Virus record (IMG/VR): IMGVR_UViG_3300021519_000916
Location: 1 to 64,000 of that record
DNA length: 64,000 bases
Strand: one strand, 5' to 3'
DNA from: a virus
The notes beneath the pieces are model-generated. The model had not been told where the DNA came from. It saw only the letters and a list, made by a program, of their open reading frames with translations, and searched no databases. Below are positions 17,126-44,470 of the stretch, in pieces. Every line of letters starts with the position of its first letter. The stretch's first letter is position 1. The position numbers were made by a program, and so were the translations under genes.

Positions 17126-17126
17126 T

Positions 17127-28930: not shown

Positions 28931-28994
28931 ACTATGTAATTTAATGCTTAAATTACTATTCTTAATAATTTATTATCCCATTCAGGAGATTCAT

Positions 28995-29954
28995 ATGTCG
29001 CAAAAACATACATTAAACTGGGTTTTGGCCCACGAACCATACCACGTATTCATCGAAGCGGCTAAGAGCTTTGCTGACGAAATTAACACAGAAACTAACG
29101 GTCAATATACAATTAACGTTGTTGACTTAAATGAGTGGAACGCAATCGCTCAAGCAAACTTATCCGTACACACAACAGACCGTGAAAAAATCATCGGCCT
29201 AGTTGATACAGGTGTAATTGATATGGCTACAGTTTATGCAAGTACATTAGGTCGCATTGACAAAGACATGTATGCACTAACAATGCCTTTCTTATTCAAC
29301 AGCGATGAGCAAGCACGTAAGGTAATCGACGGCGACGTTGGTCAACACATGTTAGCTAAAGTTGCAGATAACAGCAACATCCGCGGTTTAGCATTTACAT
29401 ACTCAGGTGGTTTCCGTATTGTTCCAAGTAACAAGGCAATCGAATCTGTTGGTGATTTTGCTACTATGAATATTGGTTGCGGTAATAACCTAGTTGCAGT
29501 TGAAACATTTAAAGCAGTTGGTTCCAATCCAGTTCCAATGTTTATCGAAGACTTAGAAGAAAAATTAGCTACAGGTCAAGTTGACGGTGGCGAAACAACA
29601 TACACACGTTTCTTTGTATTAGGTCACGATAAGCAAACTACACACATTAACGATAACGAACACAGCTTATTCTTAACTAGCTTGATCATTAACCAACAGA
29701 CTTGGTTATCATTGGGCGAAAAGGTACAAGGTATTTTTGCTCGTGCGGCAATGAGAGCCGCTCAAATTGAACGTGATCATAGTTTAGCCGACAACGTTCT
29801 AATTCAGAAACAAGCCGCAGAAAAAGGTATTCCAACTGTACGTATGACCGAAGCTGAAAAAGCCAAGTTTGTATCTGCCACAGCAGGCCTATACACAAAG
29901 TTCAACACTTACTTTAGTTCTGGTCTACTAGATCAATTACAAGGTAAAAAATAA
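28995..29954 (+). CDS. DctP-like solute-binding protein without signal peptide (copy 1)
   Basis: A 319-residue protein of the DctP/TRAP substrate-binding family. In bacteria these are periplasmic and bind carboxylates for TRAP transporters. Here the true start, ATG 28995 after CAGGAGATT, gives MSQKHTLNWVLAHEP, with no signal peptide. Core motifs are typical: PFLFNSDEQARKVIDGDVG, GLAFTYSGGFRIV near residue 130, VDGGETTYTRFF and NEHSLFLTSL near residue 220. The Arg pair that usually holds the carboxylate (SGGFR) is kept. Two paralogues follow in the block. No TRAP membrane subunits are encoded nearby. A cytoplasmic or virion role is possible. Confidence 0.8.
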   Translation: MSQKHTLNWVLAHEPYHVFIEAAKSFADEINTETNGQYTINVVDLNEWNAIAQANLSVHTTDREKIIGLVDTGVIDMATVYASTLGRIDKDMYALTMPFLFNSDEQARKVIDGDVGQHMLAKVADNSNIRGLAFTYSGGFRIVPSNKAIESVGDFATMNIGCGNNLVAVETFKAVGSNPVPMFIEDLEEKLATGQVDGGETTYTRFFVLGHDKQTTHINDNEHSLFLTSLIINQQTWLSLGEKVQGIFARAAMRAAQIERDHSLADNVLIQKQAAEKGIPTVRMTEAEKAKFVSATAGLYTKFNTYFSSGLLDQLQGKK

Positions 29955-30658
29955 TGTTGAGCCCAAAAGAGTTTATAGCACGTTTAGCCAAACAATGTGA
30001 ACCATTGTATCAGCATCACGAACAAGCAGTAGCAGAATACTTTGCTAACAAGCCAAGTAAAGAAGATATGATTGGCTACTTTAGCCGTCGTATGATCAAT
30101 GAACGTATTAACTGCATCCAGTTAGCCAAGCGTGTAGGTAGCTTGCCAATGGATACTAGCGCAGAAGAAATGTTCTTGTTGAGCAAACAAGCACATGACG
30201 AAGCTAAACACTTCTGGTACGTTAAAGAAATCGTAGAAGATATGTTAGGTCATGAAGTTGATGTTGACGCTACATTTGAAAAGATCAAAGAAGAACAATT
30301 AAAGCAAGAAGAAGATGGTTACGATCGTTTTCGTCCAGCTGAATTGTTAGAACATTTCGAGTGTTCAGAAGATCCAGTTGCACTAGCAGTTTACCAATAC
30401 ATTGCCGAAGGCATGGCACATCGTAATTGGGTAATGCAAGCTGAGTGTGCTCCTAATGAACTAATTGCTGAAAAGTATGCCGAAATTGCTAAGGACGAAA
30501 AGTTCCACGCAAGTCTAGGTCGTGCGGCATTAGAAAAATTAGTAGTCGATCCAGAAGTACAAGCTCGTGCTCAAGCATTAGCAGATCAATTTATTGCAAT
30601 TTTATGGGATTTGCGTTGTATCAAACAACATATCCCGATGTCCGAATTAGCAGTTTAA
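29954..30658 (+). CDS. Ferritin-like diiron protein (oxidase/oxygenase candidate)
   Basis: A 234-residue all-helical protein carrying the complete diiron-carboxylate ligand set of ferritin-like enzymes: Glu50 (NERINC), the pair Glu83-x-x-His86 (EAKH), Glu152 (AEGMAH) and Glu182-x-x-His185 (EKFH). This pattern fits PaaA-, MiaE- or rubrerythrin-type proteins rather than simple storage ferritin. It may hydroxylate a small substrate or detoxify peroxide. Its start shares a base with the DctP-like stop, so they are co-translated. The substrate is unknown. Confidence 0.72.
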   Translation: MLSPKEFIARLAKQCEPLYQHHEQAVAEYFANKPSKEDMIGYFSRRMINERINCIQLAKRVGSLPMDTSAEEMFLLSKQAHDEAKHFWYVKEIVEDMLGHEVDVDATFEKIKEEQLKQEEDGYDRFRPAELLEHFECSEDPVALAVYQYIAEGMAHRNWVMQAECAPNELIAEKYAEIAKDEKFHASLGRAALEKLVVDPEVQARAQALADQFIAILWDLRCIKQHIPMSELAV

Positions 30659-30662
30659 TCTC

Positions 30663-30701
30663 TTGACAAGTTGGCACTAGGTAGCGTATACTAGTGCTAA
30701 C
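30663..30701 (+). promoter_or_regulatory. Sigma70-type promoter with overlapping hairpin
   Basis: TTGACA at 30663-30668, 18-base spacer, TATACT at 30687-30692. A hairpin, GTTGGCACTAG (30670-30680) with CTAGTGCTAAC (30691-30701), overlaps the -10. It could also end the upstream transcript. Confidence 0.6.
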
Positions 30702-30718
30702 TTTGTAGTCCCCTTTAA

Positions 30719-31438
30719 ATGAATAACCCCTTAAGCGAATACGATAGCGTATGGGAATGGTCTAAGACTAAAAGCTCTTACCATTTTGATAACACTAAAC
30801 AAGACCGTCCTAATTCTACCTTTATGGTTGTTGGACAAATACCTGTAACCTGGGCAGACTATTTGCCTGCAATACGTCAACAGAGTTTTACTACAACATG
30901 GAATAACATTACCAGCACAGGCGGCGCCAAGCAAGTTGTACTAGGCATTGATAAACGACGTGCTGATATTGCTAAAGGTGGCGGTGACCTTGACAAGATT
31001 GAAATGACTGATGTCTTTGATGACTTTACCAACTATCCCGAGTTACAAAAGATTATTGACAGCTTTCATTTTAGTGCAATTCATGCTCGCTGTCATGTAC
31101 AAAAGACAGGGCAAATGTTTACAGCACACATTGACCCGATACAAAGATTGTTTTACAAAGATGGTAACGGTAATCCCGACTCAGGCGATTACGGTTACGA
31201 TCCACTAGATATTGTTCGTGCTACAGTTATGTTAGAAGACTGGCATCCGGGACAATTTATGATATACGGCAATACTGTTTACCAACAGTGGCGTGCCGGA
31301 GAAATACACATGCACGATTGGCCAAACGTACCACACGCTACAGCCAACGCAAGTGAACACAGTCGTATTACTCTACAAGTAACAGGACTAAGAACTGCTT
31401 TAACTGATCCAAAATTTAACGTGAGGAACTTCAAATGA
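30719..31438 (+). CDS. 2OG-Fe(II) oxygenase/hydroxylase-like protein
   Basis: The 239-residue protein has a jelly-roll-type metal site: His137 and Asp139 in TAHIDP, His206 in VPHATAN and Arg216 in HSRITLQVTG, the last suited to bind 2-oxoglutarate. The pattern resembles aspartyl/asparaginyl hydroxylase-like phage proteins. A preceding ARCHVQKTGQ strand is typical for this group. It may hydroxylate a protein, nucleotide or small molecule. It has its own promoter and overlaps the TctC-like gene by 4 bases. Confidence 0.68.
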   Translation: MNNPLSEYDSVWEWSKTKSSYHFDNTKQDRPNSTFMVVGQIPVTWADYLPAIRQQSFTTTWNNITSTGGAKQVVLGIDKRRADIAKGGGDLDKIEMTDVFDDFTNYPELQKIIDSFHFSAIHARCHVQKTGQMFTAHIDPIQRLFYKDGNGNPDSGDYGYDPLDIVRATVMLEDWHPGQFMIYGNTVYQQWRAGEIHMHDWPNVPHATANASEHSRITLQVTGLRTALTDPKFNVRNFK

Positions 31439-32340
31439 TCAAACGACTTTTACTAACAGCTTTATTAGCCTTATCAACTACTGCATTTGCTGGAGAACGA
31501 ATTACTCTGTATTGGGGTTTTAGTCCTGCCGCCAACCAAGCAAACTTTTATCGTGCTATGGTAGCAGAACTTAAACGTACTCAAACCAAGTATGAATTCT
31601 TTTTTGAAACTAAACCAGGTGCTGGCGGCGCCATTGCCGCGAAACATATTTTAGACAACCCTAAAAATACCCTGCTAGGCGGCACAAGTACTTTCTTTAT
31701 TAGACCAAACTTTGATAAAGAAACTGGCTATAGCGCAGAAAGTTTTCAACCAGTCCTAGTTCAAACTCTTGGCGCACCAGTTGCATTTTTTAGTTCTAAG
31801 TATAATAACATTAAAGTATTGAAAAAGGATCAAGACTTAACAACATCAATTAGTGGGTACGGTAGTCACAGTAACCTAATGGGCAGTATCTTGGGGGAAC
31901 ATTACTCTGGTGTTCGTATTATTAACTATGTTAGTCTAGTAGATGCTGTTAGAGATGTAGAGGGAAAACACATTGACACCGGGTGGAACTGGTTGGCCGA
32001 GATTGAAGGTGCAGTTGAAACAAATACGACAAGTGTGCTTGGCATTACTGGAACTCGTAGTGTCAAAGGTTTCCCTACATTGGCCAGCCAAGGCATCAAG
32101 GGATTTGAAAACGCCAGTACCAATACTGTCATTGTTGCCAGTGCCGAAATGCCTGCGGAAAAAGTTCGAGAATTATACGAACTGCTACGTGTAGCAAATC
32201 GAGCACCGGATGTACAAGCTGGCTATGCTAGAGAGTATTCGACTCCGGCAGACTTTACATGGCCTCAAACAGTTAGTTGGTTTAATCAGCAAGTTAAGTT
32301 TTGGCGCGAACAGGCCGCAAAAGTTAAGCCACTACAATAA
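31435..32340 (+). CDS. TctC-like tripartite tricarboxylate binding protein (copy 1)
   Basis: The 301-residue protein has a Sec signal (MIKRLLLTALLALSTTAFAG, cleavage near residue 20) and the TctC fold: YWGFSPAANQ, TKPGAGGAIAAKHILDNP near residue 60, GGTSTFFIRP and DTGWNWLAEIEGAVE. TctC proteins bind tricarboxylates and related acids in the periplasm for TctAB permeases. The family is expanded in Burkholderiales. Here the permease genes are absent, so host permeases would have to be used. It overlaps the oxygenase gene by 4 bases. Confidence 0.78.
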   Translation: MIKRLLLTALLALSTTAFAGERITLYWGFSPAANQANFYRAMVAELKRTQTKYEFFFETKPGAGGAIAAKHILDNPKNTLLGGTSTFFIRPNFDKETGYSAESFQPVLVQTLGAPVAFFSSKYNNIKVLKKDQDLTTSISGYGSHSNLMGSILGEHYSGVRIINYVSLVDAVRDVEGKHIDTGWNWLAEIEGAVETNTTSVLGITGTRSVKGFPTLASQGIKGFENASTNTVIVASAEMPAEKVRELYELLRVANRAPDVQAGYAREYSTPADFTWPQTVSWFNQQVKFWREQAAKVKPLQ

Positions 32341-33479
32341 TGAATAAGAAACTCGGTTACTACGTATGTGATGGTCAAGAATTTAATTCTAAGATCAATT
32401 GTGCAATACATGCCACACAAGCAAATAAACCCATGTCTTGGGTTTTTAACAATGACGTCTTTTCTAATTACGATTTTAGTAAAGATCCAGAAGAAACATT
32501 AGATGCTCTGTACGATCGCCGTGCTAGAGAAATTAGAGAAAAATACGATTATGTTGTGTTAAGCTACTCTGGGGGTTCCGACAGTCATAATATCTTAATG
32601 TCATTTTATCGACAAGGATTACACATTGACGAAGTAATCAGTAACTGGGTATTTGAAGCTAGTAAAAAATTTACTATCATTGATTCTTTAGTTAACGATG
32701 CATGGAATCAAAACGCCGAGTACGAGCTACATACCAAAGAACGCCTGCAATGGATCTATGATCATATGCCCACGACCAAGGTCACATTATACGATTGTGG
32801 TAAACAAATTTATACGTATTTTAATAAGGCCAAAGACCCAACGTGGGTAACCGATCATGTTGAACCCTTGAACCCTGCGGCCACACAACGTTATAATCCG
32901 TTACAAATTAAAGATATTCGTTTGCGTATAGACAAACAACATTCAATTGGATTTATAGTGGGTGTTGATAAACCCCTGAGTCTTATTGTTGACAACAAGA
33001 TGTATCTGCGTTTGCGGGATAAAACTGCAAACATTATTCCCAGCAGTATCTACACCAGCGAATACGATAACACCACGGTTGAGTACTTTTATTGGGCGCC
33101 TGAATCATGCGCTATGTTGGCCAAACAAGGACATACTATGCTCAAGCATTTGAACACCAATAAACAATACCAGTTGATTTGGAAACCTAGCCAGGTTGAA
33201 AACTTTAGAGCCGCACAAGAAACTCTGATGAGAAGTATAGTTTATACCACATGGGATGAGCAAAACTCATTTCAAACAAAGAAACCGACTAACGATTGGT
33301 ACAGTGAACTAGACTATTGGTTTACTGAACAATTCAGGAATACCCCCGCTGGCCGCAATTGGCAAGCAGGGGTAGACTATTTAGAAAATTCTGTTGATAA
33401 ATCTTTACAACTTACAACTGGAAAGAAGGGCTTGAAGGTTTTCTTCTCACCCCTTTACTATGTTGGCGATGTTGTTTAG
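32340..33479 (+). CDS. PP-loop ATPase (PAPS-reductase/ExsB-like), copy 1
   Basis: A 379-residue enzyme of the PP-loop (adenine nucleotide alpha hydrolase) superfamily. The PP-loop SYSGGSDSHN lies at residues 75-84, after a conserved GYYVCDGQEFNSK start. Such enzymes adenylate a substrate, as in PAPS reductase, ThiI, QueC or GMP synthase. The N-terminal 70 residues, with VFNNDVF, are typical for phage members. It starts one base over the TctC-like stop. Substrate unknown. Two more paralogues lie at 40-42.7 kb. Confidence 0.7.
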   Translation: MNKKLGYYVCDGQEFNSKINCAIHATQANKPMSWVFNNDVFSNYDFSKDPEETLDALYDRRAREIREKYDYVVLSYSGGSDSHNILMSFYRQGLHIDEVISNWVFEASKKFTIIDSLVNDAWNQNAEYELHTKERLQWIYDHMPTTKVTLYDCGKQIYTYFNKAKDPTWVTDHVEPLNPAATQRYNPLQIKDIRLRIDKQHSIGFIVGVDKPLSLIVDNKMYLRLRDKTANIIPSSIYTSEYDNTTVEYFYWAPESCAMLAKQGHTMLKHLNTNKQYQLIWKPSQVENFRAAQETLMRSIVYTTWDEQNSFQTKKPTNDWYSELDYWFTEQFRNTPAGRNWQAGVDYLENSVDKSLQLTTGKKGLKVFFSPLYYVGDVV

Positions 33480-34501
33480 TCTTTACGACGTTCAATAATA
33501 CGTTTTACTAAGTTTATATCGATACCCATGACTTCAACATGGCGATAGCTTAGTTTTGCTCGCTTCCGTAACAACACCTGGTCTTCTTCAGACAAGTCAA
33601 TGATTGTAACACCATTGGCTACAGCATCGCGTTCGTATTTTTCAGCATCTGCAACAGACCACTCACGTTCGATCTTAGCTACACGCTTTGCGGCAACCAT
33701 AAATGCATTACGTTGTTCTTCTGTTAAACTATCTAAGAACTTAGTACCAGTTAAGATAGTTGTCATGAAAATACTGTGATTTGTTTTTAATACGTGCTTA
33801 CCAGTAAAGCGAATGTATGTAGTTTCAATAGCCATGCCGTCATCTACACCTTCAGCTAAACTAGCGTTAGCAACTTCAGAGCGACGTAGGATTGGAGTTC
33901 CAAAACCATCGCCAAACAATACTTCGCTTGGACGATTAGCAACGATCAGATCTGTTTGTGCTAAATCACTAAGATTGCTTAGACCATTTGTGCTACCGAT
34001 AATGCGATAACCACCGGAGTAAGTAAATGCTAAACCACGAATCTTTTCATTTTCTAGGCCTTTGCATAGCTCGTCACCAATTTCGCCATCTAGTACACGA
34101 CTAACGTGATCGTGACTGTCAAACAAGAATGGTAAGTCTAATGCGGCAAAGTCTTTGTTCTTTAATTGTTCGGCAACTGTGAATACTTGAGTTTGGCTCA
34201 TTTCAAAATCGCCGGCACGTAACGCATCAAAGAATGTTGTCCATTTTTGTTGCATATCTCTAATGTGGCCAACGGTATGTTCACTAGTACTATCTTCTAG
34301 ACCAGGAATGCTTGGCTTTCTAAGACGCAGAGCTTCCGATTTTTGGTATTGATCAACGTATGAATCAATAGTGTGAATTTCAAGTTCAAATTGTCCCGGG
34401 CACAAAGTTTCTAGTTCGCGGCCAAATGCTTCGGCAGTTCTTTGAAATAGGTGTACCGGAAAGTGTGCAATTAACCAACGTATTTTTCTACGGTCAGACA
34501 T
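33476..34501 (-). CDS. DctP-like solute-binding protein without signal peptide (copy 2)
   Basis: A 341-residue minus-strand homologue of the 28995 gene. It starts MSDRRKIRWLIAHFPVHLF at 34501 after a CAGGAGATA site; a longer in-frame extension exists but lacks this site. It keeps PFLFDSHDHVSRVLDGEIG, GLAFTYSGGYRII and NHSIFMTTILTG. No signal peptide is seen. An inserted acidic stretch near residues 60-75 is unique to this copy. It converges with the PP-loop gene, overlapping its end by 4 bases, and has a late-type box upstream. Confidence 0.8.
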   Translation of the reverse strand: MSDRRKIRWLIAHFPVHLFQRTAEAFGRELETLCPGQFELEIHTIDSYVDQYQKSEALRLRKPSIPGLEDSTSEHTVGHIRDMQQKWTTFFDALRAGDFEMSQTQVFTVAEQLKNKDFAALDLPFLFDSHDHVSRVLDGEIGDELCKGLENEKIRGLAFTYSGGYRIIGSTNGLSNLSDLAQTDLIVANRPSEVLFGDGFGTPILRRSEVANASLAEGVDDGMAIETTYIRFTGKHVLKTNHSIFMTTILTGTKFLDSLTEEQRNAFMVAAKRVAKIEREWSVADAEKYERDAVANGVTIIDLSEEDQVLLRKRAKLSYRHVEVMGIDINLVKRIIERRKD

Positions 34502-34529
34502 ATTTGTATCTCCTGAGGATTTAAACATA

Positions 34530-34537
34530 TATTTATG
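34530..34537 (-). promoter_or_regulatory. T4-late-like promoter box CATAAATA (minus strand)
   Basis: CATAAATA read on the minus strand, about 30 bases before the start of the DctP-like gene at 34501. Confidence 0.5.
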
Positions 34538-34566
34538 CTTGACCGTAGTCAAATGCCAAAAATACC

Positions 34567-35325
34567 TTAAACTTCCTTGTATATTTTAAGAATTTCAAGT
34601 ACAGCTGGATGTCGTTGTATGTCCTTGTTGGCAAATTCAACTCCCGACACAAACTTACATTCACGATACTCATCTACTAAACGTGTAAAATCTAACAAAC
34701 CGTTATCAGCTTCTTTTCGGTCTGCTTGGCGAGTGTCTCCTGTGATAATCATCTTAGACGCTTCACCCAATCGTGTGAGTAACATTTTCATTTGACTTGG
34801 TGTTGCGTTTTGCATCTCATCTGCAATAATCCAAGATTTCTTAAATGTTCTGCCCCTCATATATGCCAGTGGAGAAATCTCAATTGTTTGATCATCTAGC
34901 ATTTTTACGATTTCGCTTTGTCTATAATACTCCCCAATGACGTCAAATATTGGTCTAGTCCATGGTGCCATTTTTTCATTTAGCGTACCCGGTAAGAAAC
35001 CGTGTTGTTCATCATCTACCCCAACTGCTGGTCTAGTTATAACTATACGTTCGACTTCTCCGGATCTGTAGGCTTTCAAGGCCGCAAGGACCGCAAGCAT
35101 AGTTTTACCCGTACCTGCTGGACCTGTGGCAAATATAATTAGCCGTTTAGGATCAGTTAGTTGATCGATGTATTTTTCTTGTGTTAGACTTTTTGGGAGA
35201 AGAGAAATTGGACGTTGCTGTTGTTGCTGTGGTTTTCGATATAAGTCCAATCTTACTGCGTTGTTACTAGTGAAGTTACTGTTGATTGTTAGAGCATCTG
35301 CTCTACGTTGTTGCCGTTTGGACAA
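34567..35325 (-). CDS. phoH: PhoH-like ATPase
   Basis: The 252-residue minus-strand protein has the PhoH P-loop: Walker A GPAGTGKT (residues 68-75), IVITRPAVGVDDEQHGFLPG near residue 95, Walker B WIIADEMQNATP near residue 170 and GDTRQAD near residue 200. PhoH proteins are often carried by phages of aquatic bacteria and have been linked to phosphate-starvation regulons and RNA helicase or nuclease activity. The N-terminal 45 residues are Gln/Arg-rich and variable. Located upstream of copy 2 of the DctP-like gene on the same strand. Confidence 0.88.
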   Translation of the reverse strand: MSKRQQRRADALTINSNFTSNNAVRLDLYRKPQQQQQRPISLLPKSLTQEKYIDQLTDPKRLIIFATGPAGTGKTMLAVLAALKAYRSGEVERIVITRPAVGVDDEQHGFLPGTLNEKMAPWTRPIFDVIGEYYRQSEIVKMLDDQTIEISPLAYMRGRTFKKSWIIADEMQNATPSQMKMLLTRLGEASKMIITGDTRQADRKEADNGLLDFTRLVDEYRECKFVSGVEFANKDIQRHPAVLEILKIYKEV

Positions 35326-35371
35326 GTGTGCCTCCTGTTAGTAGATTTGTAGATCAATTTTACCTACACAA

Positions 35372-35379
35372 ATATTTAG
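35372..35379 (-). promoter_or_regulatory. T4-late-like promoter box CTAAATAT (minus strand)
   Basis: CTAAATAT on the minus strand about 47 bases before the phoH start (35325). A TATAAAAT-like string lies just upstream. A small hairpin, CGACC/GGTCG around TGTTTAT (35402-35418), separates it from the methyltransferase gene. Confidence 0.35.
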
Positions 35380-35436
35380 GCGCAAACTTGTTTATTTTAT
35401 ACGACCTGTTTATGGTCGAAAAACCAACATAAATAA

Positions 35437-36171
35437 TTAACTATGAGTGAGACACTGGTACGCAAAGTACAGACGCTCGTTGGTATCCTTCTTAAACTCC
35501 AATAGTTTCAAATTATACTTTTCAGCAAACTCGTTTACTATTTCAAATGTCCACGGAAAAATATCTACATACGGGCCAGTCTTGTGCGGAATACCAGGAT
35601 TGGCTCTTAGATAAAATTTCCCCCCGGGTGCAAGCAACTCTATGCAATGTGCAAATCTAGCTTCAATGTCATCTCGACTATTAAAGTTTATGGACCCCAA
35701 TGCAATAATGTGATCGTGTTTACGTGTCACTTTATAGTCAAGAATATCTACCATATAGTCAGCACAATTGTTATAGGGATCAATGCCTATTAGATTATCA
35801 ATTTTCCCTTTAAACGGATGATATCCGCAGCCAACATCCAACACGTTTTGTGGACCTTGTTTTTGAATTTCATCTGCTAGACCCCAACCAGTGTAGTCGT
35901 AATCCCCTGTGCGTGGTTTCCATATTTCACTAAAGAATCGATGAATGTATCTCTCACTTAAATCATCTACTACTTCTTTTAATGTACCTCGGTATTCACA
36001 GGGTAAACATAACTCAGCTTCAACAGCATCTTTAAACTTGCGATAACGTGCTGGTGTCCATGGCAGGTCCTCTACTATAGTATCTTCATTAATAGCAATA
36101 TGTTGATATTTTGGTAGGCTAAATGCACCATATAAATTTTGGGAGATTAAGTTAAAAATTTTAGTATTCAT
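35437..36171 (-). CDS. Class I SAM-dependent methyltransferase-like protein
   Basis: The 244-residue minus-strand protein has SAM motif I NVLDVGCGYHPFKGKI near residue 114, an acidic Ile-Asp (IGIDPYNN) after strand 2, and a later LAPGGKFYLR segment typical of class I methyltransferases. The N-terminal 100 residues are a helical region with Trp and Cys (ELCLPCEYRG). Substrate unknown. It is the first gene of a three-gene minus-strand unit with phoH and a DctP-like gene. Confidence 0.72.
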   Translation of the reverse strand: MNTKIFNLISQNLYGAFSLPKYQHIAINEDTIVEDLPWTPARYRKFKDAVEAELCLPCEYRGTLKEVVDDLSERYIHRFFSEIWKPRTGDYDYTGWGLADEIQKQGPQNVLDVGCGYHPFKGKIDNLIGIDPYNNCADYMVDILDYKVTRKHDHIIALGSINFNSRDDIEARFAHCIELLAPGGKFYLRANPGIPHKTGPYVDIFPWTFEIVNEFAEKYNLKLLEFKKDTNERLYFAYQCLTHS

Positions 36172-36187
36172 TGATTTTTTTCTATTA

Positions 36188-36195
36188 GATAAATA
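36188..36195 (+). promoter_or_regulatory. T4-late-like promoter box GATAAATA
   Basis: GATAAATA in the divergent gap between the minus-strand methyltransferase (start 36171) and the plus-strand TctC-like gene (start 36268). A second weaker box, CTATAAGTATTT, lies at about 36240. Confidence 0.45.
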
Positions 36196-36267
36196 ATTTT
36201 TACAGAAACATAAGAAATTTTTATGTCTGACTGTTTTTCTATAAGTATTTAATCAAAGGATAGCTCA

Positions 36268-37221
36268 ATGAAAAAATTAGTAGCCATATTACTACTTGTG
36301 CCACTGTTAGCATTTGCGTGGGAACCAAAAAAGCCAATAACTGTTATATTTCCAAATGGTCCCGGTGCCGGAAACGAAATTAGTTTTAGATTTGTGGCAA
36401 GTATAGTAGAAAAGAAAACTGGCAGTAGTTTTGTGTCAGAATATCGCCCAGGCGCCGATGGTAATGTTGCAATGAATCATTTTGCCACTGCGCCGGCTGA
36501 TGGATATACTGTTGCTGTTCCTGCTTGCCAAAGTAACTGGGTAACTGCAGAGGTTTGGTATAGCAATATATTAAAATATGATGCTCAAGAATTTGAGCCG
36601 GTTGCTAATATTGCACGTAGCCCTTTGGCATTTTGGGCAACCCCAAAAAGTAATATCAACAATCCAAGAGAACTGGTTGATGCTATTAAGAATAGCAACC
36701 GTCCAATCACATTTGCAATTGGTGGTGGCGGACATAGATTAGCGGTAGAATATCTGGCGGAACGTTTAGGTATCCCGAATAGCAGAATAACAGTGGTAAT
36801 GTATAAAGGTCCAGCACAAGCATTATTAGATGTTATGGGAGGACATGTAGAATTTGGTGTTACTCCAGTGGCAGTGGGGTGGCCCCAAGTGCAAGCCAAC
36901 AAACTAAAGTTAATTGGTATAGCCAACGAGCATCCACTTAAAGGATTAGAAAATGCTCCATTAATGAAAACTGTTGCTCCGGGTTTGTTTATACATGGAT
37001 GTTGGAACATAGTATTGCCAAAAGGTACACCAGCTGATGTACAAGCGTGGTATCGCGATCAATTTGTACCTGCTATTAGAAGTAATGAAGCCCAAGAAAA
37101 GTTTGTGGACAATATGATGTTTATTACACCAACAGAACATACCCCGGAAGGTGTCAGGGCAAGTATGGCCCGTTTGCGACAAGTATGGCAACCAATTGCT
37201 AAAAAGGTAAACCCAGAATGA
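36268..37221 (+). CDS. TctC-like tripartite tricarboxylate binding protein (copy 2)
   Basis: A 317-residue TctC-like protein with a short signal peptide (MKKLVAILLLVPLLAFAW, cleavage near residue 18) and typical Bug/TctC motifs: ITVIFPNGPGAGNEISFRF, EYRPGADGNVAMNHFA near residue 60, PADGYTV, GGHRLAVEYLAERLG, and GHVEFGVTPVAVGWPQ. This is the most canonical TctC copy. It overlaps the sulfotransferase-like gene by 4 bases and follows an AAAGGAT site. Substrate not predictable by eye. Confidence 0.85.
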   Translation: MKKLVAILLLVPLLAFAWEPKKPITVIFPNGPGAGNEISFRFVASIVEKKTGSSFVSEYRPGADGNVAMNHFATAPADGYTVAVPACQSNWVTAEVWYSNILKYDAQEFEPVANIARSPLAFWATPKSNINNPRELVDAIKNSNRPITFAIGGGGHRLAVEYLAERLGIPNSRITVVMYKGPAQALLDVMGGHVEFGVTPVAVGWPQVQANKLKLIGIANEHPLKGLENAPLMKTVAPGLFIHGCWNIVLPKGTPADVQAWYRDQFVPAIRSNEAQEKFVDNMMFITPTEHTPEGVRASMARLRQVWQPIAKKVNPE

Positions 37222-37820
37222 AATATATTTTTATAGCTGGTGCGCCCGGTTCAAAATGGTCCAGTGTAGCTCTTAATATCTATTATAGTCCAGATGTTGA
37301 CCGCAGTGATGCACAAGCCAATCGAAACTATAGTCGCAACGGCACAGTCATGCATGTGGGCGGTTACTTTGATCCTGGTATGGAATTTGGCGATTGGTTT
37401 GATCAGTTAGATAAACATACCCAAGAAGAATGTGAAGCAGAATTTGATCGGCCGTTTACAGGTGAGGGGGTGCGTATTATCAAGAGTCATATGTTTATGT
37501 ATCATATTGGGTTCCTAAAACAAAACTGGTCCGATGCCCCTATCATTATGGTACACCGGGGTGATGATGCTTCTTTAGGATGGTGGGTGCGGTCTGGTGG
37601 ATTTGACATCACTTACCCCGACTATCAACCCTACTATAAAGATTTAGACTTTATGTCAGAGGAAATCACAAGACAAAATGCGGCCATGCGTCCTCACTGG
37701 GATTTGGGAAGTTTTGTCTACAATAATCTTGAGCTGTGTGACCAAATTGGCATTGCCCTGCCCCCACCTGAATATAAGCAAAACTACGCCGATAATAAAA
37801 TAAGGGTAAAAGTATTATGA
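37218..37820 (+). CDS. Sulfotransferase-like protein
   Basis: The 200-residue protein starts with MKYIFIAGAPGSKWSSVALN, a P-loop-like 5'-phosphosulfate-binding motif of sulfotransferases, and has a 3'-phosphate-like IIMVHRGDD near residue 112. Family members move sulfate from PAPS to a substrate. The link to PP-loop/PAPS-reductase-like neighbours is suggestive but not proof of sulfur metabolism. It is co-translated with TctC copy 2 (4-base overlap). Confidence 0.55.
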   Translation: MKYIFIAGAPGSKWSSVALNIYYSPDVDRSDAQANRNYSRNGTVMHVGGYFDPGMEFGDWFDQLDKHTQEECEAEFDRPFTGEGVRIIKSHMFMYHIGFLKQNWSDAPIIMVHRGDDASLGWWVRSGGFDITYPDYQPYYKDLDFMSEEITRQNAAMRPHWDLGSFVYNNLELCDQIGIALPPPEYKQNYADNKIRVKVL

Positions 37821-37826
37821 CACAAG

Positions 37827-37834
37827 CTAAATAA
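37827..37834 (+). promoter_or_regulatory. T4-late-like promoter box CTAAATAA
   Basis: CTAAATAA followed by CTGTAG, 58 bases before ATG 37892; like the box before DctP-like copy 1. Confidence 0.45.
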
Positions 37835-37891
37835 CTGTAGCACTTCGACGATATCCGTCACACACCCCAAAAAAACAATAAGGAATTCTAT

Positions 37892-38849
37892 ATGAAAACA
37901 ACAAAAATTCGCTGGGTAATCGCTCACGAACCGCTAGATCTTTTTATCCGTGCCGCTAAGGATTTCCAAGACTTTTTAAATGCCTCACAGTCGGCTGAAG
38001 AAATTGAAGTAGAAGTAATGACACTAAGTGAGTATTCTACAAAGTATAAAAACGGCGAAACAGTTACCAAGCACGATTTGCTAGACCTAATAGAGTCCGG
38101 TGAAATTGAAATGAGCCAAATGTACACAACCTGGCTGGCAGAAAACTTTAATCACGATATGTTAGCATTAGAAATGCCATTCCTATTTGAAAATCACGAA
38201 CATGCAACTCGTGTACTAGAAGGTGAAGTTGGCGAATATCTATTAGATAAAACAACTGAAAATTCAAATGTGCGCGGCCTAGCGTTTACATATTCGGGTG
38301 GTTTCCGTAATGTACTATCAAACAAAAAAGTTAATAATCTAAAAGGTCTAACTGGTGAAGATCAGAACTAATCGTAATCCTGTAGCACAAGAAACTTTTC
38401 GAGCACTAGGTGTGGAGTCGGAAGACATCCACATCTGTGAAATTGAAGATCTTGCTGAGCATATTAAGTCTGGCGAATGTGATGCCGGCGAAGGTGTATA
38501 CAGTCGTGTGTATCCGTTAAAACAAAATGAAGTTACCAAAAGCGTTATTGATAGTAAACATAGTTTGTTTCTTACCACCATGATTATTGGCAATACATTT
38601 TATGAAAAGTTAAGCCCGGAAGTACGTGCTATTATCAAAGAAGCGGCATTAGATGCTGGACGTAAAGAACGTTTAAAAACTATTGAAGATGGCGAGCAGG
38701 CCAAACAAAAATTGATCAACGAAGGTGTTAACATACACAATCTAACACCAGAAGAACTTGCCGAGTGGAAAGAAAAGACTCAAGTTGTTTACGACAAATT
38801 TGAACCTACCTTTACACCAGGATTAGTTGACAAAATCAAACGCAGTTAA
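37892..38849 (+). pseudogene. DctP-like protein (copy 3) split by a frameshift
   Basis: Two consecutive open frames (37892-38371 and 38355-38849) together match DctP-like copies 1 and 2 over the full length. The break lies after the GLTG codons near 38355: an extra base at GGT-G-AAG would have to be skipped (+1). With it skipped, 318 residues result, nearly identical in length to copy 1 (319). The N-terminus MKTTKIRWVIAHEP has no signal peptide. Conserved blocks are AFTYSGGFRNV in the first part and SKHSLFLTTM in the second. It may be a real mutation, a programmed shift, or an assembly error. Confidence 0.75.
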
Positions 38850-38861
38850 TTTTACCAAATG

Positions 38862-38902
38862 ATTGAGTAGGTATTTACATCCTACTCAATTTTCTGTATA
38901 AT
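38862..38902 (+). terminator. Terminator with an overlapping sigma70-type promoter
   Basis: Hairpin ATTGAGTAGG (38862-38871) and CCTACTCAAT (38881-38890) with a 9-base loop, then TTTTC: a good rho-independent terminator for the DctP-like gene. The loop holds TTTACA (38874-38879), which with TATAAT (38897-38902) and a 17-base spacer forms a promoter for the gene at 38926. Confidence 0.7.
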
Positions 38903-38925
38903 CTATAAATCAATTAGGAAATTTA

Positions 38926-39162
38926 ATGTTTAAAACTCAAATATCTGAGCGCATTCCGCGTTCTCTGGCAAAAGTCATAACATGGCGAATCTTGGTAACA
39001 ATTACAAACTTTCTCGGTGGATGGCTAGCCAGCGGCAATCCCTGGGTCGGCCTAGGTGTTGTTAGTTTTGCTCTGGTAGTAAACAGTATACTGTATTTCT
39101 TTCACGAACGTGCATGGAATCGCACAGACTGGGATAGATCAATCAATGAGGAATCAAGATGA
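38926..39162 (+). CDS. DUF2061-like small membrane protein
   Basis: The 78-residue protein has the DUF2061 pattern: RSLAKVITWRILVTITNF (first membrane helix), a short loop with GNPW, then a second helix ending FHERAWNRTDWD. DUF2061 proteins are two-helix inner-membrane proteins of unknown role, seen in phages with sulfur or nucleotide genes. It has its own promoter and GGAAATTTA site. It overlaps the next gene by 4 bases. Confidence 0.72.
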   Translation: MFKTQISERIPRSLAKVITWRILVTITNFLGGWLASGNPWVGLGVVSFALVVNSILYFFHERAWNRTDWDRSINEESR

Positions 39163-40064
39163 AAAAGATTTTAGCTACATTACTAATGGCTTTTGCACTC
39201 ACAGCACAGGCCAAAGAAACAATTACAATTATTTACGGGTTTAGTGCGTCTGATAACTCAGCAAACTATTCACGTAATTTAGCCAACGAAGCAAACAGCC
39301 AACAAACCAAGTATAAATTTTTATTTGATGTTAGGCCAGGCGGCGGTCAAGCAGTTGCAGTAAATCATGTAAAAAATACACGGAACACTATTTTTATGAC
39401 ATCCGGCGCATTTTGGTTACGTCCAGTTTTTTATCCTAACGAAAGTTGGGACGTTAACGAATGGCGCACGATCATGACACAATGTAGCGCACCATTTAGT
39501 GTGGCCAGCGTAAAATATAAGTCATGGAATGATGTACCAAAAAATCAACCATTGACTATCGCAACAAGTGGTATGGGTGTATTCAGCCATATCATTGCTT
39601 TACAAATTGTAGAACGATATCCAAACATGACTTTAATCCCATTTAAGTCCACGGTAGAAGGTATGTTGGCCGTTGTTAGTGGGCAAGTTGATTTTGCTGT
39701 TGGCTTCGTGGGCGATCAAGAAAATTGGACTCACGAAGAAACTAAGACTCGTTTAAATATTCTCGGAACCACTGGTAATGGTGCTGGAAAATATCCTAGT
39801 TTAGCAAGCCAAGGCTTTCCGCAGGTTCTAACTAAGTTAGATACACCATATAACTTAATGGTTCCAAAGTCGTTTGATGCAGGCAAGGCAAAAGAAATCC
39901 GCGATATACTTGCTAAGGCCGAAACAGCAACAAGTGTACGTAAAAGTTATGCATTAGATTTTTGTGCGCCTATATCTATTCCAGAGAATAAATTAAATGC
40001 TTGGTTTGACGAACAGAATAAAACTATACGCAATACCACAAAAGGGTTAACTATTACTCAATGA
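39159..40064 (+). CDS. TctC-like tripartite tricarboxylate binding protein (copy 3)
   Basis: The 301-residue protein has a Sec signal (MKKILATLLMAFALTAQA, cleavage near residue 18) and TctC features: TIIYGFSASDNSANY, VRPGGGQAVAVNHVKN near residue 58, and GQVDFAVGFVGDQENW. It is closest to copy 1 by layout (Gly-rich PGGG loop, FLFDVRPGG). It lies between a membrane protein and two PP-loop genes. No permease partner is present. Ligand unknown. Confidence 0.75.
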   Translation: MKKILATLLMAFALTAQAKETITIIYGFSASDNSANYSRNLANEANSQQTKYKFLFDVRPGGGQAVAVNHVKNTRNTIFMTSGAFWLRPVFYPNESWDVNEWRTIMTQCSAPFSVASVKYKSWNDVPKNQPLTIATSGMGVFSHIIALQIVERYPNMTLIPFKSTVEGMLAVVSGQVDFAVGFVGDQENWTHEETKTRLNILGTTGNGAGKYPSLASQGFPQVLTKLDTPYNLMVPKSFDAGKAKEIRDILAKAETATSVRKSYALDFCAPISIPENKLNAWFDEQNKTIRNTTKGLTITQ

Positions 40065-40073
40065 TGCAAATTT

Positions 40074-41393
40074 ATGAATAAATTCGAACACACCACTGTT
40101 GCTGATGTGGCTCACGACTCAAATAAAAAGTTAGGTTATTATCTTTTTAATAATCAAATTTATTATAATAAAATGCAAGTGTTACTAGAAGCATCTAAAA
40201 CATCCAAAGACAACGTAAATAAATCACCAGAGGACGACATTAAATGGTTCTTCAATAATGACGTATTCATGAAATTCCCATGGCATGTGGAACCCGAAAC
40301 GCCACTTACTGAACTGTATCGTATACGGGCGCAACAACTCAGGGATCAATATGATTATATACGGGTTGAGGCATCAGGTGGGTCCGACAGTAGTACTGTA
40401 GTTTATAGCTTTTTACTTAACAACATTCACATAGATGAAATAGTATTTAGATATCCCAAGATTGGTGAGAAGGGAGTTTCTAATACTGCGCGATTTACCC
40501 AGTGTGAAAATACTCTAAGTGAATACGAATTTGCTACCAAACCAATGCTTAATTGGATTGCTACTAATTATCCTAAAGTTAAAATCACAATCTACGATTA
40601 TAGTGAAGACATGATTGCAAACGCAGATCGCGCCGACGAGTCATGGATATTTAAAACTAGACACTATTTACAGCCCGGACATGCATATAAAAATTCCTTA
40701 ACAGGCTTCACAGAACATCGAAGATTAGCAGACTCCGGTATCAACATTGGCGTCATATACGGCGTAGATAAACCCAAGATATGTATCAAAGATGGTAAGT
40801 TCTTTTTATATTTCTTTGACAGTTTAGCAAATTATAACAATCCAGATGTTGGCGATTATACAAATATAACCAATGAATATTTTTACTGGACTCCGGACAT
40901 GCCAGAGATACTTGCAAAACAAGCTCATATATGTAAGTATTGGTTTAGTATGCCGGAACATTATCAATTTCAAAAAACCCTGCATTGGCCTAATATGGAC
41001 TTTGCCGCTAGAAACTTATATGAGCAATTAGTCAAGGGAATTGTATATCCAGACTACGACCCAAATACATTCCAGGTTGCTAAACCCAGCAATAATATAT
41101 ACAACGAAATGGACCATTGGTTCCATGTCAACTTCAAAAATACCAAAGCATATAACGTATGGGAAGCCGGCATTAATCACCTACTAACTAACTTTCACGA
41201 GTCGTATATAAAAATGGACATACATGGTAGGGCATCAAATATTCAAGAATTTATGAGCCCGTTTTACTATGTTGGGGACAGTGACATTCCTGAGATTGGA
41301 GTAATAAAGAATAGAGAATTTATATCCAATAGTCGTTTACCAGTTTCTCAGAGACATGTGCATTTTATAAAAAACAAAATGGTAATTTATTAA
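40074..41393 (+). CDS. PP-loop ATPase (PAPS-reductase-like), copy 2
   Basis: A 439-residue PP-loop enzyme. The loop SGGSDSST is at residues 101-108; the start KKLGYYLFNNQIYYNK is shared with copy 1 and copy 3. A central FKTRHYLQPGHAYK block and IGVIYGVDKPK near residue 225 are also kept. Near-identical C-termini (HVHFIKNKMVIY) show a recent tandem duplication with copy 3. It is expected to adenylate a substrate; product unknown. Starts 9 bases after TctC copy 3. Confidence 0.68.
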   Translation: MNKFEHTTVADVAHDSNKKLGYYLFNNQIYYNKMQVLLEASKTSKDNVNKSPEDDIKWFFNNDVFMKFPWHVEPETPLTELYRIRAQQLRDQYDYIRVEASGGSDSSTVVYSFLLNNIHIDEIVFRYPKIGEKGVSNTARFTQCENTLSEYEFATKPMLNWIATNYPKVKITIYDYSEDMIANADRADESWIFKTRHYLQPGHAYKNSLTGFTEHRRLADSGINIGVIYGVDKPKICIKDGKFFLYFFDSLANYNNPDVGDYTNITNEYFYWTPDMPEILAKQAHICKYWFSMPEHYQFQKTLHWPNMDFAARNLYEQLVKGIVYPDYDPNTFQVAKPSNNIYNEMDHWFHVNFKNTKAYNVWEAGINHLLTNFHESYIKMDIHGRASNIQEFMSPFYYVGDSDIPEIGVIKNREFISNSRLPVSQRHVHFIKNKMVIY

Positions 41394-42694
41394 TGAAAAT
41401 TGAACATACACAGGTCGCCGGCGTTACTTTAGAATCAAATAAAAAGTTAGGGTATTATCTGTTTGATGACCAAGTGTACTATAATAAATTTCATGTACTA
41501 CTAGAATCATCCAAAACTGAAAAGAATAAACCACTAAACGATGCAGTTAAATGGTTCTTCAATGATGACGTATTCATGAAATTCCCATGGCACGTAGAAC
41601 CCAAAACATCAATGCAAGAACTATATCGTATGCGGGCCCAGCAACTCAGGGACCAATACGATTATATACGAGTTGAAGCGTCTGGCGGAGGAGATAGTAC
41701 TACTGTAGTCTATAGTTTTTTACTTAATAATATTCATTTAGACGAAGTTGTTTTTAGATATCCCAAAACCGGAGAGAATGGTGTGTCCGGAGATGCATGG
41801 GCAACTAACTGTGAGAATACCCTGAGTGAGTGGGAATATGCTGCAAAACCATTGCTTAATTGGATCGCTACTAACTACCCCAAGGTTAAAATTACAGTAC
41901 ATGATTATAGCGAAGACATGATTAAAAATGCTGACCGTGCCGACGAGTCATGGATATTTAAAACTAGACATTACCTGCAACCGGCACATGCACATAAACA
42001 CTCCACTACAGGATTTATTGAACATCGCAGGTTGGCCGATACCAATTCTAAAATTGGTATAATATACGGAATTGACAAACCCAAGTTATGCATTAAAGAC
42101 GGTAAGTTCTTTTTATATTTCTTTGATAACTTGGCGAATCACAATAACCCCGACGTTGGCGATTATACAAATATAACCAATGAGTTTTTCTATTGGACTC
42201 CGGACATGCCGGAGATAGTGGCCAAACAAGCTCACATGTGTAGGCATTGGTTTAGCATGCCGGAACATTATCAATTCCAGCGCACACTACTTTGGCCCAA
42301 TATTGACTTTTCTGCTAGAAGCTTATACGAACAACTAGTAAAAACCATTGTATACCCAGATTATGATTGCAATACATTCCAAGTAGCTAAACCAAGTAAT
42401 AACATATACAACGAAATGGATCATTGGTTCCATGTCAACTTCAAGAATACCAAAGCATATAATGTGTGGGAAGCTGGCATTAATCACTTGTTAAACAACC
42501 TTAATGAAAATTATATACATCTAGTTAACGGAAAACAAACAAATATTAAAGAATTTATGAGCCCGTTTTACTACATAGGGGAATGTAATATACCAAGCAT
42601 GGGCGTATTACAAAACAAAGCGTTAATGGATAAAGCCAGGGCAATGGCTACAAAACACGTACACTTTATAAAGAATAAGATGGTAATTTATTAA
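41393..42694 (+). CDS. PP-loop ATPase (PAPS-reductase-like), copy 3
   Basis: The 433-residue paralogue of copy 2 overlaps it by one base. The PP-loop reads SGGGDSTT (residues 97-104); Gly replaces Ser in the variable position of SGGxDS, which still fits the motif. The two proteins are alike over almost their whole length, differing most at residues 40-55 and in the C-terminal 60. Such duplicates could form a heteromer or handle different substrates. Function unknown. Confidence 0.68.
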   Translation: MKIEHTQVAGVTLESNKKLGYYLFDDQVYYNKFHVLLESSKTEKNKPLNDAVKWFFNDDVFMKFPWHVEPKTSMQELYRMRAQQLRDQYDYIRVEASGGGDSTTVVYSFLLNNIHLDEVVFRYPKTGENGVSGDAWATNCENTLSEWEYAAKPLLNWIATNYPKVKITVHDYSEDMIKNADRADESWIFKTRHYLQPAHAHKHSTTGFIEHRRLADTNSKIGIIYGIDKPKLCIKDGKFFLYFFDNLANHNNPDVGDYTNITNEFFYWTPDMPEIVAKQAHMCRHWFSMPEHYQFQRTLLWPNIDFSARSLYEQLVKTIVYPDYDCNTFQVAKPSNNIYNEMDHWFHVNFKNTKAYNVWEAGINHLLNNLNENYIHLVNGKQTNIKEFMSPFYYIGECNIPSMGVLQNKALMDKARAMATKHVHFIKNKMVIY

Positions 42695-42733: not shown

Positions 42734-43264
42734 ATGCCAGCAAATATTAAAGATTTACTAAAAAATACACAAGACATTTTCATGACAGATTCTGCTGTCA
42801 GCACCCTATTAGACTTTGAACGGGTGTTAGATGAGCTTGATTTATACGCATTTGCCAATTGGAAGCAAGGCGAATTAGTCGAAGGTCCCACATACGAAAA
42901 GTACTTTGTAAAATGCACTTTTATGTGGCCCTACAAAAAAATGCCCGATCCCCGTGGCGCACAAAGACTGTCTGAATACGATTGTGATATTACATTTGAA
43001 CGTGACTTCTTTGAACACCCTATTAAAGTAAAAAGCCCAAACGACTATAAGCCCGGAACAAAAGTTCCTAAAATGGTCAAGAGCCCCATATGGCTAGTTG
43101 ACATTGTTATGCCTAAGAAGTTAATGGCAGACATTGAAAAAGGTGCTTTAGAACTTGAATCGGGCACAATTGATATGGAAGACATTAATCAAGCATACGA
43201 AACCGGTGCTGATAATGATGCTATAGACCAAGAGGAACAAATCAATGACCAACCAACACAGTAA
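42734..43264 (+). CDS. Conserved phage protein, unknown function
   Basis: The 176-residue protein starts at ATG 42734, almost at the expected late start. It has KNTQDIFMTDSAVSTLLDFERVL near residues 10-32, a CTFMWPYKKMPDPRG block near residue 65 and YDCDITFERDFF. The C-terminal 40 residues are acidic. It recalls conserved T4-like phage proteins of the late region whose role is not known. The following gene starts inside it (20-base overlap). Confidence 0.6.
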   Translation: MPANIKDLLKNTQDIFMTDSAVSTLLDFERVLDELDLYAFANWKQGELVEGPTYEKYFVKCTFMWPYKKMPDPRGAQRLSEYDCDITFERDFFEHPIKVKSPNDYKPGTKVPKMVKSPIWLVDIVMPKKLMADIEKGALELESGTIDMEDINQAYETGADNDAIDQEEQINDQPTQ

Positions 43265-43805
43265 CCTATTTGAGGGTCTAGAAGTTGGCGACTTAAAGCG
43301 GTTAATCCACCCCGAATTACATATTGACGAATTTAAAAGCAAGTTAGGCGACGATGCCGACGTTGTTGTTGTTAGTTTTAAAGTTGACAGTAAAGATCCA
43401 GCAATTGATTTAGTGGCATTCATTGAAAAAGGCTACAGCTGGGTCATTGATGCCGATGTTAGTTCCGGCGAACTTGAAGATGGTTCATATATTGTATTTG
43501 TTGAGATGGATCGTGATGCCGACGCTCCAAAAAATATTATGCAGTTAATGGATGAATTATTGAATTTAACAGAGCAAGATGAAAGCGACTGGCGAGTGCG
43601 CTATTATAAATCTCGTCAAGAAAAGCAATTAAGCCTTGATGCGTTAGAAGAACTTGTGCCAACTACACCAGAAGCCTACGAAAAGGCCCATGGTCAGTCT
43701 GATATTGATCAGTTAAAGACTGCTGCTGGTATAAATGTAACTACTAAAGCACCTAAAAACGACTTTACAGAATCTTTACGTAATCTAGCTGGCATTGCAC
43801 GTTAG
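43245..43805 (+). CDS. Conserved late phage protein, unknown function
   Basis: A 186-residue acidic protein. It has the recurring plan LFEGLEVGDLKRLIHPELHI, DEFKSKLGDDADVVV near residue 25, EKGYSWVIDADVSSGE near residue 62 and the end of many T4-like phage counterparts, ESLRNLAGIAR. I recall this family in aquatic T4-like phages beside structural genes; its function is not established. Overlaps the upstream gene by 20 bases. Confidence 0.65.
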   Translation: MTNQHSNLFEGLEVGDLKRLIHPELHIDEFKSKLGDDADVVVVSFKVDSKDPAIDLVAFIEKGYSWVIDADVSSGELEDGSYIVFVEMDRDADAPKNIMQLMDELLNLTEQDESDWRVRYYKSRQEKQLSLDALEELVPTTPEAYEKAHGQSDIDQLKTAAGINVTTKAPKNDFTESLRNLAGIAR

Positions 43806-43843: not shown

Positions 43844-44470
43844 ATGAGCTTCGATTTCAATTTCACTAAAGAAAAGTTAGCAAAAATTATTACAGGTAAC
43901 CAATACGTAGACCATTGGTTTGACGCACTGAACACTATATTACCAGATTATGAGATTACCTCATTGAATCGTGTTGCGGCATTTATAGCGCAGACAGCCC
44001 ATGAATCCGGCAACTATAAAGCATTAAAAGAGAATTTAAATTATCAGGCCGCATCTTTGTGTAAGGTATGGCCAAGGTTATTTCCAACAATGGAAATAGC
44101 AAATCAATACGCACATAAGCCAGAGATGATTGCTAATCGTGCCTACGCAGATCGTATGGGCAATGGTAACGAAGCAAGCGGCGACGGGTGGAGACATTGC
44201 GGACGTGGACTTATCCAACTAACCGGTAAGGCAAACTATACTGCATTTGCAGAAAGTATTGAAACACCAGTGGATGAATTAGTTGAATTTTTACAGACCT
44301 TTGAAGGCGCTGTACAATCAGCTTGCTGGTTCTGGGAAACTAATAACTTAAACCAATGGGCAGACAAAGGTGATATGCTTACGTTAACTAAACGTATCAA
44401 TGGCGGCACATTGGGACTTGACGATCGTATTAAACATTATAACCATGCATTAGAAGTGCTAGGCGCCTAA
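43844..44470 (+). CDS. GH19-type endolysin (chitinase/lysozyme-like)
   Basis: The 208-residue enzyme has the GH19 signature: TAHESGNYK at residues 51-59 (catalytic acid Glu54), a NEASGDGWRHCGRGLIQLTG core near residues 108-127, and LTKRINGGTLGLDDR near the end. In phages GH19 proteins cut peptidoglycan and are used for lysis. No signal peptide is visible, so a holin is needed. The gene starts after an exact T4-type late promoter and is followed directly by the membrane and lipoprotein genes of the lysis cassette. Confidence 0.85.
   Translation: MSFDFNFTKEKLAKIITGNQYVDHWFDALNTILPDYEITSLNRVAAFIAQTAHESGNYKALKENLNYQAASLCKVWPRLFPTMEIANQYAHKPEMIANRAYADRMGNGNEASGDGWRHCGRGLIQLTGKANYTAFAESIETPVDELVEFLQTFEGAVQSACWFWETNNLNQWADKGDMLTLTKRINGGTLGLDDRIKHYNHALEVLGA

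Follow-up and report, generated by a model that had tools for sequence, protein, structure and literature searches.

Auxiliary genes of phages are mostly known as single borrowed enzymes, and those concerned with transport include the PstS-type genes of marine T4-like phages, which supply a phage-encoded, exported binding protein. Contigs of SUP05 phages carry tctA, a 2-oxoglutarate (2OG)-FeII oxygenase and phoH as auxiliary metabolic genes, the role of tctA being called unknown (PMC4164917); in the passage concerned, these families are noted singly, with no TctC/DctP/PP-loop block, signal-less DctP, operon or island described. The locus analyzed here occupies positions 28995-42694 of a 64,000-nucleotide (nt) stretch of phage DNA (the window), which represents positions 1-64000 of a 136,506-base (136.5-kb) virus record. 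It likewise encodes exported binding proteins, yet these belong to organic-acid families, occur in several copies, and are coupled to ATP-dependent ligase-type enzymes and to a second binding protein lacking a signal peptide. A literature search, which did not cover subscription journals, returned no matching description of DctP, TctC or PP-loop sets in phages.

The components resemble parts of known systems. The DctP sequence family is shared with tripartite ATP-independent periplasmic (TRAP) transporters (DctP-DctQ-DctM), and DctQM adjoins in some relatives; phage DctP differs in having no Sec signal and in occurring alongside a conventional receptor that does carry one. Tripartite tricarboxylate transporters (TTT; TctC/Bug) have the TctC family and its Sec signal in common with the locus, and TctA/TctB are present in some relatives, whereas TctA was not found in this possibly incomplete record and the TctC reading frames overlap those of PP-loop and sulfotransferase-like proteins. 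Asparagine synthetase B, beta-lactam synthetase and carbapenam synthetase share the predicted fold class and the SGGxDS loop with the PP-loop proteins (PP) of the block. PP1-PP3 differ from these N-type PP-loop ligases in lacking a Pfam match, in an N-terminal part too short for the usual glutaminase domain, and in belonging to a family found almost only on phage contigs.

We tentatively read the block as a mix-and-match accessory island encoding an organic-acid capture-and-conversion route. Exported TctC would catch a small carboxylate in the periplasm, and import would be by a TTT permease, either the host's or, in relatives, one encoded by the phage. Signal-less DctP would stay in the cytosol, where it may bind the same or a derived carboxylate and hand it to, or hold it for, the neighboring PP-loop enzyme; this AsnB/beta-lactam-synthetase-like protein could activate the carboxyl group with ATP to form an amide-type (or C-S) bond, and the 2OG-like, diiron, sulfotransferase-like and methyltransferase-like enzymes might then tailor the product. 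We infer that DctP is cytosolic, to which class the substrate belongs, which way the pathway runs, that DctP passes the substrate to PP, and that the phage benefits. The genes named in the preliminary description of this DNA are all present at 28995-42694, their family assignments are upheld by profile, fold or motif, and the 1-4-nt overlaps between them are real. Its gene list omitted a methyltransferase-like gene, and it overlooked both the conserved sub-cassettes and the nature of the block as an island with empty sites.

Gene linkage and sub-cassettes

Pattern-based scans returned 44 loci for PP3, 397 contigs for DctP and 223 for the 2OG-like protein, the best 80 being kept for each of the latter two. 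The linkage counts were made after removing near-copies; they describe near relatives rather than the whole collection, and the choice of seeds biases the counts of the seeded families. Among 73 non-redundant PP genes, TctC lies within 1.5 kb in 44 and DctP in 28. A PP-loop enzyme is found within 1.5 kb of 35 of 52 DctP genes and within 5 kb of 43; the same genes have TctC (24) and DUF2061 (13) within 1.5 kb. For 61 2OG-like genes, TctC is present within 1.5 kb in 39 and a sulfotransferase-like gene in 38. Co-occurrence in related phages, named beforehand as the test that could refute the block, was thus found, and controls point the same way. Eighty regions (979 kb) surrounding the DNA polymerase gene in the same clade contained no DctP, TctC, PP, diiron or sulfotransferase-like gene; they held one 2OG-like gene, and a second PP-loop family in seven regions. 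Loci of the record taken from outside the window had no DctP, TctC or PP. Chance mixture is ruled out by the same-clade control regions together with conserved gene order.

Four sub-cassettes can be distinguished, with junction counts that include near-copies. The first, TctC-sulfotransferase-2OG, often has a diiron gene before it and a methyltransferase-like gene on the opposite strand; 1-4-nt overlaps occur at 37 of 42 TctC-sulfotransferase junctions and 51 of 56 sulfotransferase-2OG junctions. The second is TctC-PP, with 29 of 30 junctions within 30 nt and 18 of 30 overlapping. The third, DUF2061-DctP followed by the second, AsnB-like PP-loop family, is seen in freshwater-type and marine-type loci. 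The fourth, DctP-2OG-TctC-PP, is shared by L016, L141 and the window, where a diiron gene is inserted. In L074-L109 the linkage also holds elsewhere in the genome, in the midst of tail genes.

Signal-less DctP proteins

DctP1 (319 residues; 28995..29954, + strand) is a TRAP-type binding protein with a Pfam DctP match of 1.6e-44. Its start, MSQKHTLNWVLAHEP, preceded by AGGAG, is set by homologues and the ribosome site; a hidden signal read from the upstream ATG at 28944 was rejected, being absent in homologues, and the ribosome site fits 28995. DctP2 (33476..34501, - strand; Pfam DctP 5.6e-23) belongs in the tree to a second clade together with L016, L054, L094 and L101. It is also signal-less, and a TTG start at 34552 was discarded because homologues place the start at 34501. 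The third copy, DctP3, is described below. Signal peptides were called by hydrophobicity, not by a trained predictor. By this measure, an N-terminal stretch of signal strength is found in none of 81 phage DctP with a conserved start and in 26 of 30 bacterial relatives, one exception among the latter being the phage-like contig L055/L316. Signal-less DctP is a phage family, represented by the 397 contigs of the scan. Residues W8, H12, P14, F18, T131-Y132-S133-G134, R201, T224, E255 and Y296 are invariant in phage DctP and mostly missing from 29 bacterial sequences. This phage-specific set points to a common, specialized binding job, and R201 may lie in the binding pocket.

The most telling context comes from relatives with complete transporters. 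In L094 (5219-10930), L095 and L100-L103, the genes for DctQ, DctM and a DctP that appears to bear a signal are directly followed by signal-less DctP; the signal-bearing TRAP receptor has as its best match in the PDB a keto-acid-binding protein (8.4e-42). A cold-shock-like open reading frame (ORF) precedes the phage TRAP transporter. Since these complete transporters have a signal-bearing receptor of their own, the signal-less DctP, presumably cytosolic, is unlikely to be a transporter receptor, and sequence context strongly supports it as an additional, intracellular part. The earlier suggestion that signal-less binding proteins have been recruited to another job gains strong support from this arrangement. 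Precedent for a binding-protein fold in the cytosol is given by enzymes such as THI5, MqnA/MqnD and HemC; these belong to different solute-binding protein families, and no evidence was found that phage DctP is an enzyme. An NMT1/phosphonate-binding-like protein without an obvious signal lies between PP and TctC at L020:11194-12180 and may represent another type of binding protein that works in the cytosol.

Phage DctP could alternatively act as a cytosolic sponge for a host metabolite or defense signal, with a logic like that of Tad and Acb, while the enzymes alter or destroy the same molecule. The protein lacks a signal yet keeps its fold family and a phage-specific invariant set, and it often stands alone with a PP-loop enzyme. 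Exported TctC does not fit this idea; characterized DctP relatives bind organic acids and not nucleotides; and PADLOC models of defense and counter-defense matched nothing apart from one weak methyltransferase hit. We hold the sponge to be distinctly unlikely. A virion or injected protein, with metabolic linkage as a secondary matter, is highly improbable: DctP lacks a signal peptide and many of the L074-L109 loci have it among tail-tube and head-closure genes, but most loci place it with DUF2061, PP-loop or transporter genes, and close relatives lack it at the syntenic site.

PP-loop enzymes paired with binding proteins

PP1 (32340..33479, + strand; in alignment A1) is an N-type PP-loop ATP pyrophosphatase that overlaps TctC1 by 1 nt and is 97% identical to its counterpart in L016. 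PP2 (40074..41393, + strand) and PP3 (41393..42694, + strand), of the same type, overlap each other by 1 nt and, judged by their identity of 77%, are a tandem duplicate. The SGGxDS motif is present in PP proteins, with S97, G98, G99 and D101 invariant, and ATP pyrophosphatase activity is predicted for them. The AlphaFold model of PP3 (predicted local distance difference test, pLDDT, 92) has carbapenam synthetase (3e-4), GMP synthetase, beta-lactam synthetase, LarE and NAD synthetase as its best PDB folds. Template-modeling scores are low, so the assignment is safe only to the level of the superfamily. The closest viral models are uncharacterized proteins of uncultured phages, phage 'asparagine synthase' being further off. 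Capture by cytosolic DctP with subsequent ATP-dependent activation by the PP-loop enzyme would explain most simply why DctP and PP are paired.

The second, AsnB-like PP-loop family is very diverse and directly follows DUF2061-DctP at L112:11036-13308 and in other marine loci, often in tandem with 1-nt overlaps. At L021:8382-9998, a tryptophan-halogenase-like flavoprotein (2.8e-52) lies between two PP-loop genes.

Exported TctC and importers in relatives

All three TctC are exported TTT-type binding proteins. TctC1 (31435..32340, + strand) matches Pfam TctC at 1.8e-6, just above the cut-off, and carries the Sec signal MIKRLLLTALLALSTTAFA. TctC2 (36268..37221, + strand; Pfam 5e-26), which opens the TctC-sulfotransferase-2OG cassette, also has a Sec signal, and its nearest solved relatives include Bug27, BugD and a terephthalate-binding protein. 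TctC3 (39159..40064, + strand) is the only one of the three below the Pfam cut-off (9.7e-4); it falls within the phage TctC cluster and bears a Sec signal. Hydrophobic Sec-type signals were found in 90 of 93 phage TctC.

Several relatives carry permeases. In L015, L019, L081 and L082, the genes for PP, TctA, a solute-binding protein that appears to bear a signal, and DctP form one run; L019 also has a major facilitator superfamily transporter. Complete operons are seen at L105:8294-11098 (TctB-TctA-TctC, on a contig also bearing signal-less DctP) and at L046:3555-6188 (TctC-TctB-TctA, on a contig also bearing PP-loop genes); L123 carries TctA. Within 22 related records, TctA occurs in 7 and DctM in 1. 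In G383, which has the nearest split DctP, TctA lies behind a TctB-like ORF (identified by eye), at least ~18 kb from the block. The presence of whole importers in relatives makes organic-acid import likely, and lends weight to the uptake of an organic acid in the earlier proposal, whose sulfur compound, late timing and host permeases are conjectural for this phage.

These importers raise the question of whether uptake is the whole function, with TctC feeding host TTT permeases in the way that PstS serves phosphate uptake, and with the enzymes as separate morons at a shared hot spot. TctC export and the permeases of relatives are what such a scheme predicts, and unrelated cargo could accumulate at a hypervariable site with empty versions. 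Uptake alone leaves the signal-less DctP unexplained, however, and TctC overlaps a PP-loop or sulfotransferase-like gene in many phages, with linkage persisting at other sites; we consider it fairly unlikely.

The small membrane protein DUF2061 (38926..39162, + strand; Pfam 2.1e-14) is 77-79% identical to the DUF2061 just upstream of DctP in L089, L088 and L072, and accompanies signal-less DctP in many phages. DUF2061 genes are among the iron- or Fur-responsive genes of Caulobacter and Shewanella (PMC3751524, PMC12442407), which is a lead only. A second, more distant DUF2061 is encoded in the same record outside the block (L007:4928-5149, minus strand).

A DctP split into two chains

DctP3 is encoded by two ORFs, so that the preliminary description was right in counting three signal-less DctP but missed that the third is divided between overlapping ORFs. 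The N-half (37892..38371, + strand; 6.6e-16) covers profile positions 2-155 of 316, and the C-half (38355..38849, + strand; 3.1e-28) covers positions 156-314, with a GTG start, a +1 frame and a 17-nt overlap. The C-half begins MKIRTNRNPV, exactly at the KIR motif. L011, L025, L027 and L052 carry a split at this same point of the profile (positions 152-156 of 316); contig ends aside, no other split was found among 133 ORFs with a DctP match. The five phages form one clade (support 99/90), which argues against two independent fissions. Two junction layouts are seen: the window and L011 have the GTG start, the 17-nt overlap and the +1 frame, and L025, L027 and L052 have an ATGA overlap. Each half retains 85-90% protein identity with synonymous sites near saturation, and the ratio of non-synonymous to synonymous rates (dN/dS) is 0.03-0.05 where computable (0.05 for the C-half; dS of the N-half is saturated).

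Sequencing error or pseudogene can be rejected because the split recurs at one position in five phages, with two junction layouts and purifying selection on both halves. Programmed frameshifting is unlikely, as the two layouts would need opposite shifts. By these substitution patterns, both chains are retained by selection, and they would be expected to assemble. A bolder possibility, and a doubtful one, is that a TRAP binding protein has moved to the cytosol to serve PP-loop ligases as a specificity subunit or a carrier of their substrate. This would amount to a class of binding-protein-dependent ligases within a phage-borne small-molecule pathway that has its own importers, the carrier being two-chained in one lineage.

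Candidate tailoring enzymes

A ferritin-like diiron protein (234 residues; 29954..30658, + strand), assigned by motifs and model, overlaps DctP1 by 1 nt. Residues E50, E83xxH86, E152 and E182xxH185, two E...ExxH pairs in a helical bundle, are invariant in 18 sequences; the model (pLDDT 89) has PaaA/PaaC, TenA and UndA as best folds, none below E 0.001. The 2OG-Fe(II)-oxygenase-like protein (239 residues; 30719..31438, + strand) displays an HxD...H...R site for metal and 2OG (H137, D139, H206, R216) invariant in 31 homologues and has no match in Pfam, PHROG, NCBIfam or PDB sequences. The sulfotransferase-like protein (37218..37820, + strand), overlapping TctC2 by 4 nt, has PGSKWSS, KSH and R114 invariant in 27 homologues, candidates for the 5'-phosphosulfate loop, catalytic K.H and 3'-phosphate site of PAPS sulfotransferases, with no match in the databases, PDB sequences included. 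The class I S-adenosylmethionine (SAM) methyltransferase-like protein (35437..36171, - strand) has a weak Pfam Methyltransf_23 match (0.007) and the motif DVGCGY..GIDPYNN, invariant in 19 homologues. Neighboring loci encode a beta-keto acid cleavage enzyme (BKACE), ATP-grasp, Rieske, tryptophan halogenase, desaturase and radical SAM proteins, a set that reads like small-molecule tailoring. The BKACE (Pfam 1.1e-93), at L060:5355-6218, lies near TctC-DctP and is a possible clue to the substrate class.

The same enzymes might instead decorate DNA bases, tRNA or a surface glycan, with the imported acid as building block. Neighboring loci contain radical SAM enzymes and PP-loop proteins weakly similar to QueC, and such enzymes are known in phage DNA hypermodification and glycan decoration. 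The block yielded no gene from any known pathway of DNA modification, and we know of no such pathway that uses the DctP or TctC families; this explanation appears unlikely.

A cargo island at a fixed site in T4-like phages

The phage is T4-like by its DNA polymerase (phrog_262, 3.9e-189), clamp loader (phrog_168) and DNA ligase; the sequences compared are metagenomic contigs. The block is a cargo island at a fixed site in T4-like aquatic phages. Close relatives (the best 80 of a DNA-polymerase scan, at 77-89% identity) have a hypervariable site with phoH on one side and, on the other, two virion structural genes followed by the endolysin. It is empty in L305, L310 and L311, where the virion genes directly follow phoH, and L306-L309 hold parts of the block there (methyltransferase-like, diiron, TctC, sulfotransferase-like, 2OG-like, TctC-PP). 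In the window, PhoH (34567..35325, - strand; Pfam PhoH 1.3e-67) corresponds by synteny to the left border of this site. The right border is formed by the two virion genes at 42734..43805 (+ strand; 42734-43264, phrog_12928, 3.5e-32; 43245-43805, phrog_13138, 3.7e-27), and the endolysin (43844..44470, + strand; phrog_181, 8.8e-75) lies beyond. The DctP1-diiron-2OG-TctC1-PP1-DctP2 stretch is on the opposite side of phoH from the hypervariable site, as it is in L016 and L054, there without the diiron gene.

A single copy of the T4 late promoter word TATAAATA lies in the window (43811-43818), just upstream of the endolysin, against ~8 expected; the word is seemingly avoided elsewhere in the window, and a count below chance expectation gives no basis for inferring expression timing. 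Upstream of the block, at 15359-20765, are two large adjacent ORFs (588 and 1212 residues) without a PHROG match.

Bacterial contamination was rejected. The sole match of the PP family in a metagenome-assembled genome sits on a single 3-kb contig, and the family is absent from 368 other genomes of that class; DctP loci also hold genes for UvsX, a DnaB-like helicase, tail-tube and head-closure proteins. The cultured phages of INPHARED gave no PP or 2OG-like match, and their DctP matches, at ~20-31% identity, look like bacterial DNA.

Weighing the capture-and-conversion route

Several points count against the proposed route. Physical contact between DctP and the PP-loop enzyme is hypothetical. 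The arginine of the usual KIR motif, which binds carboxylate in TRAP DctP, is kept in DctP3 and many phage DctP and lost in DctP1 (NIGCGNN) and DctP2, so that a carboxylate ligand is not certain for these two. Neither TctA nor DctM is present in the window's own, possibly incomplete, record. The names of the 2OG-like and sulfotransferase-like proteins derive from motifs alone. Finally, the cassettes are separable: many marine phages have only DUF2061-DctP-PP-loop and many others only TctC-sulfotransferase-2OG, and because they can occur apart, several systems may share one site.

Implications for phage biology

The gene set is widespread and almost confined to phage contigs, and it brings together the uptake of metabolites, probably all of one class, with their binding inside the cell and their conversion at the expense of ATP; in some phages a complete TTT or TRAP importer is included. 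The set provides a context for the phage tctA and 2OG-oxygenase genes reported with unknown role. Ligand screens could be applied directly to signal-less DctP and its PP-loop partner, both of them soluble, and the split DctP is a naturally occurring binding protein of two chains. Together, these observations suggest that a previously undescribed route allows many uncultured tailed phages of aquatic habitats to capture a metabolite of their host and alter it chemically.

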